From the NCBI GenBank assembly GCA_902509695.1, contig CABWYP010000005.1:1-54347 (forward strand): DNA of 54,347 nucleotides. Reading direction: 5' to 3'. A model generated the notes under the pieces. The model ran no database searches and was not told the DNA's origin. It was given only the letters and a program-made list of their open reading frames with translations. Each line of letters starts with the position of its first letter. Position 1 is the first letter of the stretch. The translations under genes and the position numbers were made by a program. The stretch comes from an uncultured Alphaproteobacteria bacterium. GTDB taxonomy: Bacteria > Pseudomonadota > Alphaproteobacteria > HIMB59. Positions 9,433 to 12,723 of the stretch are shown one piece after another.

Positions 9433-10032
9433 TTGATTGATACAGCTCTAATTCTTGCTTTAACATCTTACTACGTAGTTATGTTTATCACGCCTGGGCC
9501 AAATAATACTATGCTTACAATTTCTGGAATTAAATTTGGATTTAAGAGAACAATTCCTCATATTTTTGGAATATCTATAGGGCATGCTCTTCAAATTTCA
9601 ATTATTTGTTTAGGGCTAGGTGTTATCTTTAAGACTTATCCTTTAATTCAAGTGTATTTAAAATGGCTGTGTTTAGTTTATCTTTTTTACTTAGCATGGA
9701 AGATGATTGGATCTATTAAACACCATGAAGTTAATTCTGGAAGACCACTTAAGTTTATTGAAGCATCAATGTTTCAATGGGTTAACCCTAAGGCTTGGAC
9801 AATTGCAATTACAGTATCTACAGCTTTTTATCCAAGTGAAGAGAATTATATTATAGCTTTTTTATTCCTTTCTTCATTTGCTTCATTAATTAATCTCCCA
9901 TGCATAAGTTTATGGGCTTTGTTTGGAGCATCATTAAGAAAATTTATAGATAATAAAATAATTAAAAAATCAATTGAGTATTTTTTTGCTTCACTTCTTA
10001 TTTTTACTGGGATTTATTTAGCTCTCAATTAA
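9433..10032 (+). CDS. LysE/RhtB family amino-acid exporter
   Basis: This 199-residue integral membrane protein fits the LysE/RhtB family, which exports basic or neutral amino acids. The family motif near the N-terminus is clear (ITPGPNNTMLTISG), as is the NPKAWTIAI motif before the later helices. About six hydrophobic segments can be seen. The start is TTG at 9433, 4 bp after gpmA, so the two are likely cotranscribed. The substrate cannot be told from sequence, but the neighbour on the other strand is a saccharopine-type (lysine) gene pair. Its 3' end overlaps that pair by 15 bp. Confidence 0.9.
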   Translation: MIDTALILALTSYYVVMFITPGPNNTMLTISGIKFGFKRTIPHIFGISIGHALQISIICLGLGVIFKTYPLIQVYLKWLCLVYLFYLAWKMIGSIKHHEVNSGRPLKFIEASMFQWVNPKAWTIAITVSTAFYPSEENYIIAFLFLSSFASLINLPCISLWALFGASLRKFIDNKIIKKSIEYFFASLLIFTGIYLALN

Positions 10033-10578
10033 GTAATTTAGTAAATAAAGGTAACGATAATTTAAATACCCTTTCTTAGAAAGATAATAATCTTCAATGC
10101 TATCTTTATTTATTGTTTTAAGAATCTTGGGTAATACTTTTTTTAGCTTACCGCTAAAATATTTAGTTGATTCATAAGGAGAAGTAGTTAACATTTTTTT
10201 TTTCGATATTGTCTTTGTTCCCTTACTTTTAAGTAATCCATAGTCTATTAGTGAGCAATCTTTATTTAATACTTTTTTCAATAATGAGATATTAATTTTC
10301 TGTTTTCTTGTGATAGAAAAAAACATCATATAATTTTGATTTGAATTAATTTTGTTTAATGCAACTTCCTCAATTGATAAAAACAGATCTATTTTTTGAT
10401 TAATATATTTTCGGCATCCTACCTTATAGTAACTATTATTTGAGATAATCCTCGATTTAGATAACTCAATAAAAAAATTTATTTCTGGAAATTTATTTTT
10501 TAAATATGATATATCTTCAGGTATTAAAGGCGCCCTCATCTCATTAATTTTTTTATCTTTAAGAATACAAATATTCAT
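10018..10578 (-). CDS. Stand-alone, degenerate LYS1-type saccharopine dehydrogenase N-terminal domain
   Basis: This 186-residue protein resembles only the N-terminal (AlaDH/PNT-like) domain of LYS1-type saccharopine dehydrogenase or lysine-ketoglutarate reductase: EMRAPLIPEDISYLK near the start and CSLIDYGLLKSKG later match conserved positions. The NAD-binding Rossmann half, which brings the family to about 350-370 residues, is missing. By-eye alignment to yeast Lys1 puts Glu (in LSIEEV) where the catalytic lysine of GLKE is expected, and Ser (in FFSITRK) in place of the catalytic histidine. It is coupled to the next gene by a 4-bp ATGA overlap, so it is probably translated. It may be a subunit, a regulatory remnant or a decaying gene. 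The family call is moderate. Confidence 0.6.
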   Translation of the reverse strand: MNICILKDKKINEMRAPLIPEDISYLKNKFPEINFFIELSKSRIISNNSYYKVGCRKYINQKIDLFLSIEEVALNKINSNQNYMMFFSITRKQKINISLLKKVLNKDCSLIDYGLLKSKGTKTISKKKMLTTSPYESTKYFSGKLKKVLPKILKTINKDSIEDYYLSKKGYLNYRYLYLLNYLIES

Positions 10579-11690
10579 AATTCTTTTATTGATATTCCTA
10601 AAACTTGTAAATTTTTAAGAATACATGAGACATTTTCATTATCCTGAAATATTCTATGTAATCCAAATATTGGTTTTGTAATAAAAATTCTTTCGATAGT
10701 TGATGCTACTGTATAGGAAACGCATTGTGACATAGATGAATTTGTTACTTCACTTGACTCATCAATATATAAAATTTTATTATAAATATTTTCATTACTA
10801 TCATCTTTAGCAATCAAACTAACATATAATAAAACCCTATCTCTCTCATTAGATTTATATTGATTGTTATCCCAAAGCTTTGAACTTAATAACTCTATAT
10901 CTTTATTTTCATCTATCATTTTAAAAATATCTCTCCAAGCTTTTGACCACCCGTTTAACCTAATTGTACCTCTTTGAAAAGAATCAATTAATGATAGATA
11001 ATTATCTAATTTGTATTCTTTAATATAGGGTAACGAGTCCCTGTTTGGGTAAATTTCAAATTTTTCGTCTAGAAAATTTATATTTGAAATAGAAACGTAG
11101 GGTTTTAGCAAAGTTTTTTCCTTAAAATTTTTAATATACTTAGCTTTCGAATTTAATGCTTTTAATACACCTAGAGGTGACCAACTAAATTTATATCTAA
11201 ATTCATTAGGGATATGAGGAAACCCTCCACACATACTCTTAAAGTCTATTGAGGTAATATTTTTATTTTTTGTAGAGATTTTAAAATCATTAATAATTTT
11301 ATGAGCAAATAAATGATCTATTCCTGGATCTAGCCCAGCTTCACACATAAATAAAGTTTTATTTTTGACAAATTGACTATTAAATTCTTCATATAAAGGA
11401 TCATAGTAACTTGATGATAAAAAATGACACTTATTATCTACAGCAATATTTATTATTTCCAAATGCTTTGAAGCAGGAAGCATAGACACAATTATATCAT
11501 TTGGCTTTAGTCTTTGTTTCAGATTCTCTAAATTAAATTTTTGAACAGGTATTTTATTTAATAATAATTTTGCTGCTTTTTCAGGAGTTCTATTCCAAAC
11601 CTCTAATTCATAACCTTTATCAATCAAGTAGAGGATACCAGGTGGTGAAGATAGACCAACTCCTAACCAATGTATTTTTCTTACATTCAT
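10575..11690 (-). CDS. Saccharopine dehydrogenase (LYS9-type) family protein
   Basis: The 371-residue protein matches the glutamate-forming saccharopine dehydrogenase or reductase family. A nucleotide-binding turn is at the N-terminus (WLGVGLSSPPGILYL, then EVWNRTPEK). CEAGLDPGIDHLFA and CGGFP followed by YKFSWSPLGVLKALNS are hallmark substrate-domain motifs of LYS9. The C-terminus ends in GLHRIFQDNE. It could act on saccharopine in lysine breakdown or on a related opine-like compound. It precedes, and overlaps by 4 bp, the LYS1-like fragment. The first-gene position and a LysE exporter across the way suggest basic amino-acid metabolism. It diverges from aguA by 49 bp. Confidence 0.85.
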   Translation of the reverse strand: MNVRKIHWLGVGLSSPPGILYLIDKGYELEVWNRTPEKAAKLLLNKIPVQKFNLENLKQRLKPNDIIVSMLPASKHLEIINIAVDNKCHFLSSSYYDPLYEEFNSQFVKNKTLFMCEAGLDPGIDHLFAHKIINDFKISTKNKNITSIDFKSMCGGFPHIPNEFRYKFSWSPLGVLKALNSKAKYIKNFKEKTLLKPYVSISNINFLDEKFEIYPNRDSLPYIKEYKLDNYLSLIDSFQRGTIRLNGWSKAWRDIFKMIDENKDIELLSSKLWDNNQYKSNERDRVLLYVSLIAKDDSNENIYNKILYIDESSEVTNSSMSQCVSYTVASTIERIFITKPIFGLHRIFQDNENVSCILKNLQVLGISIKEL

Positions 11691-11739: not shown

Positions 11740-12723
11740 ATGAAACTAATTCCTGAATGGAAAAATCATCAAAGTTGTTTAATTGCTTGGCCTTGTAACA
11801 TTGATCTATATGGCTCACAAATGAACAAAGCTAAAATTGAAATGGCTAATTTAGCCAATCAAATCTCAGAAGAGGAAAAAGTTTATATTTATTGTAACGA
11901 AAAAGATAACCAAGAATGTGTGTCAATTGTAGCTAATAAAAATATTTCTATCATAGAGACAAATCTTGATGACTCGTGGATGAGAGATATAGCACCAATC
12001 TTTTATCAAGATAAAAATACTTTAAAGTCAGTTTCATTTAATTTCAATGGATATGGAAAATATCCAGATTTTGAAAAAGACAACAAAATCTCAGAATTTA
12101 TCTCCTCTCAATTTGAAATCCCTTGTTCTAAAAATAATATTACCTTAGAGGGAGGGGCTATAACATATGACGATAATGGCAATCTTTTTACTACAGAAAG
12201 TGTACTTTTAAATTCTAATAGAAAAAATCAATCCAAAGAAGTCATAGAAAAAGAGCTAATAGAATTATTCGATTTAAATAAAATAATTTGGATACCTAAT
12301 GGACTTGAAGAAGATGATACAGATGGGCATATAGATAACATATTTTGCCCAATTGGAAATAATAGATACTTAATAGCAAGTACTACTTTGACAAAGACAA
12401 AAAACTCTAAAATCTTGGAGCAGTCTAAGGCTATTTTAAAAAATGAACTCAATGCACAAGACCCCTCATCTCAAATAATTGATATCCCATTACCCTCCGA
12501 AATTTATGTAAATAACAAGCGACTTGTAGCTTCTTATATAAATTTTTACTTTTCTAAAAATTCTATTTTTATTCCTAAATTTAATGTCAAAGAAGACAAT
12601 GAGGTATATGATATTTTTAATTCATTATTTAATGATAAAAAAATAAAAATGATTGAAACAAGTCATATTAATTATGGGGGAGGAAACATTCATTGTGTTA
12701 CAATGAATTTACCTAAATTATGA
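11740..12723 (+). CDS. aguA: Agmatine deiminase
   Basis: AguA hydrolyses agmatine to N-carbamoylputrescine and ammonia. It belongs to the PPAD fold (guanidine-group modifying) enzymes. The motifs are AWPCN near the N-terminus, DDSWMRDIAPIF, ITLEGGAITYDDNG, DDTDGHIDNIFCPIG with the catalytic histidine, and YGGGNIHCVT with the nucleophilic cysteine at about residue 319. At 327 residues it is a little shorter than the usual 340-370. Its stop overlaps the aguB start by 4 bp, so both steps to putrescine are made together. Confidence 0.95.
   Translation: MKLIPEWKNHQSCLIAWPCNIDLYGSQMNKAKIEMANLANQISEEEKVYIYCNEKDNQECVSIVANKNISIIETNLDDSWMRDIAPIFYQDKNTLKSVSFNFNGYGKYPDFEKDNKISEFISSQFEIPCSKNNITLEGGAITYDDNGNLFTTESVLLNSNRKNQSKEVIEKELIELFDLNKIIWIPNGLEEDDTDGHIDNIFCPIGNNRYLIASTTLTKTKNSKILEQSKAILKNELNAQDPSSQIIDIPLPSEIYVNNKRLVASYINFYFSKNSIFIPKFNVKEDNEVYDIFNSLFNDKKIKMIETSHINYGGGNIHCVTMNLPKL

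Follow-up and report, generated by a model that had tools for sequence, protein, structure and literature searches.

The closest described relatives of the protein considered here are the LYS1/LKR enzymes, the lysine-2-oxoglutarate reductases or L-lysine-forming saccharopine dehydrogenases of lysine breakdown, represented by yeast 2QRJ and human AASS LOR 8E8T. The structure of human LKR shows two connections between its lobes, and its C-terminus lies within the N-terminal lobe (PMC9490328), so that removal of an internal segment would delete lobe II and rejoin the two halves of lobe I. The catalytic residues are Lys77 and His96 in yeast (Kumar et al. 2012, as cited in PMC9490328). The short LYS1 resembles these enzymes in the sequence of domain I, including its C-terminal return segment, and in its orthologous locus, which in the window is an operon with LYS9. 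It differs in having no Rossmann domain II, in the replacement of Lys77 and His96 and in the loss of further substrate-site residues. It shares the fold family PF05222 with the N-terminal domains of alanine dehydrogenase and transhydrogenase alpha, but all 11 short forms tested are without PF01262, the C-terminal domain of those proteins. The neighbouring 371-residue protein has both Pfam domains of LYS9, the L-glutamate-forming saccharopine dehydrogenase, whose function it is predicted to share, and keeps 84 of the 84 residues invariant in relatives; it differs in adjoining what appears to be a dead LYS1, in a genome with no visible source of saccharopine. Pseudoenzymes in general are likewise conserved proteins that have lost catalysis, but here the whole cofactor domain has been excised, apparently in parallel in several lineages. 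We consider it probable, though well short of certain, that the short LYS1 proteins form a family of pseudoenzymes that arose by domain excision and are maintained by selection in a non-catalytic role.

The gene pair and the identity of the 186-residue protein

The window, by which we mean the whole 54,347-nucleotide stretch of DNA that was analysed, carries the two genes as ORFs on the minus strand, with the following features.

10575..11690, minus strand: LYS9-type saccharopine dehydrogenase, 371 aa, keeping 84 of 84 residues invariant in relatives
10575..10578, minus strand: ATGA stop/start overlap, predicted translational coupling, found likewise in full-length pairs
10018..10578, minus strand: short LYS1, 186 aa, LKR domain I minus Rossmann domain II, matching both ends of the full-length LYS1 of sister species
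10213..10578, minus strand: N-terminal part of domain I, residues 1–122, with Glu and Ser at positions 70 and 88 and substrate-site Glu114 replaced by Gly
10180..10212, minus strand: junction or linker, about residues 123–133, where about 185 Rossmann residues are missing by comparison with L061/L062
10021..10179, minus strand: C-terminal return segment of domain I, residues 134–186, with the genus-specific conserved KKGYxNxRY motif and the lowest omega (0.146) within the short-form clade

The initial annotation had described a complete LYS9-like gene joined by an ATGA overlap to a 186-residue product, and both points hold. The 371-residue product matches Sacchrp_dh_C (6e-41) and Sacchrp_dh_NADP (4e-7), its best match among solved structures is a fungal saccharopine reductase (9e-29), the ORF reads through at these coordinates, and the two genes overlap by 4 bases on the minus strand.

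The 186-residue product matches AlaDh_PNT_N (PF05222) with an E-value of 3.6e-5, short of the Pfam curated cut-off, and the LKR domain of human AASS at 2e-5; an NCBIfam search with the short protein returned no match. A family profile of eleven short forms gave the expected alignment to LYS1/LKR, matching human AASS at 2e-9, more strongly than the single sequence. PF05222 is matched by all 11 short forms tested (best 1e-8), with no other convincing Pfam match; PF01262, the Rossmann NAD(P) domain II, is found in 0 of these 11 and in 10 of 10 full forms. The two forms do not differ in charge, being basic to the same degree. AlphaFold, given the short protein and two relatives of full length, reached a pLDDT of 37, too low for use.

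The sister species G150 and G030 (contigs L061 and L062) have a LYS1 of 369 residues at the same place, ATGA-coupled to LYS9. The short protein aligns to residues 1–122 and about 318–369 of this enzyme with 62–64% identity, its residues ~134–184 matching the C-terminal segment of the full-length protein. The segment that is absent, ~185 residues, begins ahead of the GFGxxAG motif and extends as far as the DNLPS motif. The missing Rossmann half reported initially is confirmed by these lost residues and by the lack of PF01262. The accompanying description of the product as the N-terminal LYS1 domain only has to be amended: the domain I match stands, but the C-terminal segment is also present. 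As judged from the alignment, the short protein is a complete domain I, its N-terminal part and C-terminal return segment having been rejoined by in-frame excision of domain II. A full-length LYS1 at this place in relatives had been named as the sign of a truncation artefact; it is indeed seen in G150/G030, but an artefact is excluded because 21 other genomes have the short form and because the catalytic residues are altered.

Distribution and number of excisions

The genus is represented by 52 genomes; the short form is present in 22 of them and the full form in 17, and the two never occur together. One further genome, G152, preserves no more than 25 residues, where a contig stops, and 12 show neither form, which is not proof of absence since in several the contigs stop inside the locus. 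The gene order lpxC-fumC-gpmA-lysE / LYS1 / LYS9 / aguA-aguB-potF-potA is common to full and short genomes, and the short gene sits at the orthologous locus of full-length LYS1 beside LYS9. The window is the only one of the 22 short-form genomes to have LYS9; in each of the remaining 21, aguA directly adjoins the short gene. The proposed check, to look in relatives for the same short form beside LYS9, gives a divided answer, the short form recurring in 21 genomes and the LYS9 neighbour in none of them. Wherever a LYS1 of the sister family f2 was found on an unbroken contig, its frame is full-length, at about 410 residues; in the loci read, the gene lies beside LYS9 but elsewhere in the genome than the genus locus. 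A sample of 385 genomes from the class yielded no further short form, and the text of papers on the HIMB59/AEGEAN-169 clade makes no mention of saccharopine or lysine.

The contigs of G022, G016, G013, G036, G014 and G152 end inside the locus, which may point to within-population variation. In G149 (L114), LYS9, fumC and lpxC are present as fragments only, perhaps through assembly frameshift errors.

A tree of seven flanking genes, without an outgroup, places the window as sister to full-length G150/G030 (UFBoot 100) and clade A, comprising 19 short-form genomes, as sister to full-length clade B (UFBoot 100), with short-form G012/G023 falling outside both of these groups; no rooting unites the three short groups. 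The immediate neighbours lysE and aguA both place clade A with B (97). Because loss of a domain is irreversible by mutation and the flanking tree splits the short groups, vertical inheritance would require at least three excisions. We conclude that there were probably at least three, in the window lineage, in clade A and in G012/G023.

This parallel excision appears well supported by context, but it is not proven by the gene itself. The boundaries are identical everywhere, as they would be if a single excision had later spread between lineages through gene-body replacement. The tree of domain I (170 sites) groups the window with G150/G030 (84) and joins clade A weakly with G012/G023 (84), and a single origin of all short forms is not rejected (AU p 0.28). 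Three observations oppose such spread. In clade A, the flanking genes, one sharing a few bases with the short gene and the other starting 29 bases away from it, follow the species tree; the window protein is 64% identical to full-length G030/G150 and 45–49% to other short forms; and the window gene lies beside a LYS9 of the same lineage, grouping with G150/G030 (95) in the LYS9 tree. A single origin is thus, in our judgement, unlikely, yet it deserves to be kept in mind. Joint import of aguA with the clade A short gene was examined on the neighbour trees and was not supported.

The surroundings of the locus vary in other respects. The genus has two distinct versions of the lysE-type transporter gene (window 9433-10032), though the flanking genes follow one tree, and this suggests replacement by recombination. 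One version is that of the window, G150/G030 and G025 (86–89% identity to the window), G012 (81%) and G023/G014 (72–73%); the remaining genomes have the other, at about 62%. The aguA gene (window 11740-12723) diverges faster than its neighbours, with 65% identity between G010 and G031 against 84–97% for other flanking genes. In G023 (L099:4385-9554), a proteorhodopsin-like gene followed by crtI, crtB, crtY and blh-like genes, all named by eye from translations, stands between lysE and short LYS1, and the last gene of this stretch overlaps the 3' end of short LYS1. G012 (L100) has an equivalent gap of similar size, with at least the last two genes of the G023 stretch. Short LYS1 and aguA start divergently in clade A; the 29 bases between them (L002:2050-2078) are identical in the four genomes compared and end with TATAATCTT right before the aguA ATG, so that aguA may be leaderless.

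Selection on the short form

For clades A and B, values of omega were obtained with a purpose-written codon model, all of the divergence sampled in clade A being taken as post-excision. The short form in the 19 genomes of clade A has an omega of 0.229, and a value of 1 is rejected with 2dlnL of 98.9; this is the dN/dS calculation that had been proposed as a check. The C-terminal part has a value of 0.146. In the full-length proteins of clade B, the corresponding values are 0.173 for domain I, 0.191 for domain II and 0.169 for LYS9, and comparison of the short forms of G012 and G023 gives 0.38. The window branch includes pre-excision time and is nearly saturated at synonymous sites; on it, the test rejects omega = 1 for short LYS1 (LRT 21.7) and likewise for LYS9. 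We conclude from the codon model that the short form is under purifying selection in clade A, where this can be cleanly measured.

These results bear on whether short LYS1 is a relic in slow decay, its function lost, LYS9 following and the short ORF on its way out, as the initial annotation had allowed. The catalytic sites are lost, LYS9 is missing in 21 of the 22 short-form genomes, and on the window branch the short gene has changed at roughly double the rate of its full-length sister (0.43 versus about 0.22). However, neutrality is firmly rejected in clade A, and the ORF is intact in all 22 genomes despite a neutral-drift simulation of the window gene in which the probability of no stop was 0.0045 at 0.2 substitutions per site. 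The genomes are, moreover, streamlined, and useless genes are expected to vanish from streamlined ocean bacteria. We regard decay as unlikely. The short form would be catalytically dead, as indicated by its residues and the missing cofactor domain, and it is maintained by selection; these two properties together define a pseudoenzyme.

Residue loss and the role of the remnant

The LYS9 of the window seems to be still in use although the genome shows no LKR, because its invariant residues are all kept and it has evolved at its sister's rate (branch lengths 0.24 and about 0.26). The window genome is 65% complete, and an unlinked second LKR could be missing from it. As regards the third pathway enzyme, ten aldehyde dehydrogenase classes were scanned in seven genomes and none was clearly ALDH7. 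The coupling of short LYS1 to an intact LYS9 could be taken to mean that it is a regulatory or structural subunit of that enzyme. Such a role is conceivable in the window but fails as a general one, the 21 other short-form genomes being without LYS9 while their short protein is nonetheless under selection; the ATGA coupling, moreover, is inherited from the full-length operon. We therefore hold the subunit role to be improbable.

Yeast Lys77 and His96 align with K70 and H88 of G030. The window has Glu and Ser at these positions, in agreement with the substitutions first noted, clade A has Gln and Asp, G012 Asn and Asp, and G023 Lys and Glu. The catalytic His is gone from every short form and the catalytic Lys is retained in G023 only. 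Glu114 and Arg123, invariant among full forms, are lost or changed in most short forms. As the alignment reads, catalytic and several substrate-site residues have been lost, each lineage in its own way, a pattern of repeated independent loss and not of one new active site. An acidic residue does replace His88 in three of the four lineages, as Asp in two and Glu in one, and might signal a new catalytic activity gained by the remnant at the old site; since position 88 is Ser in the window and further active-site residues differ among lineages, we give this little credence. That a separately encoded Rossmann domain completes a split LKR, as also suggested initially, can be dismissed, since the genomes with domain II are the same 17 that have the full form, since it is found, within genome completeness, in 0 of the 22 short-form genomes, several of them more than 90% complete, and since domain I has also lost its catalytic residues.

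We return to the reading of short LYS1 as a domain-excision pseudoenzyme. In-frame excision would have stripped the NAD(P)-binding Rossmann domain from the ancestral LYS1 (LKR) of a LYS9-LYS1 operon, and what was left would bind a partner, without catalysis, by way of the conserved C-terminal segment. This segment carries the KKGYxNxRY motif and is under tighter constraint than the rest of the protein; it is common to full and short forms and is absent from the f2 outgroup. In the window, the remnant would be co-translated with a functional-looking LYS9; in other lineages LYS9 is gone, which means that LYS9 is not an essential or general partner. The binding job may already have belonged to domain I of the full-length enzyme. 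More tentatively, and with rather less confidence than we place in the pseudoenzyme reading itself, LKR domain I could have served a second, non-catalytic function while the enzyme was still present; when the cell could do without this route of lysine breakdown, several lineages would have independently excised the cofactor domain, each at identical boundaries, and retained domain I for that function.

Parallel removal of a whole domain with selection on what remains amounts to a natural deletion experiment. It suggests that LKR domain I does something beyond catalysis in abundant, streamlined ocean bacteria, the kept dead half pointing to a second, previously undescribed job. The window species, with its dead LYS1 and intact LYS9, looks intermediate, so that the order of loss can be studied. 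The locus is also a warning that annotation of a saccharopine pathway may hide a missing first step in genomes.

The pattern of residue survival touches on the same point. The short LYS1 of the window keeps 20 of 31 invariant residues, against 84 of 84 in the window LYS9. Of the residues invariant in the genus only, 11 of 23 are kept in all short lineages, compared with 5 of the 31 that are universally invariant (Fisher p 0.017). Better survival of genus-only residues would be expected if a genus-specific second function had outlived catalysis, and this small test is suggestive of such a function.
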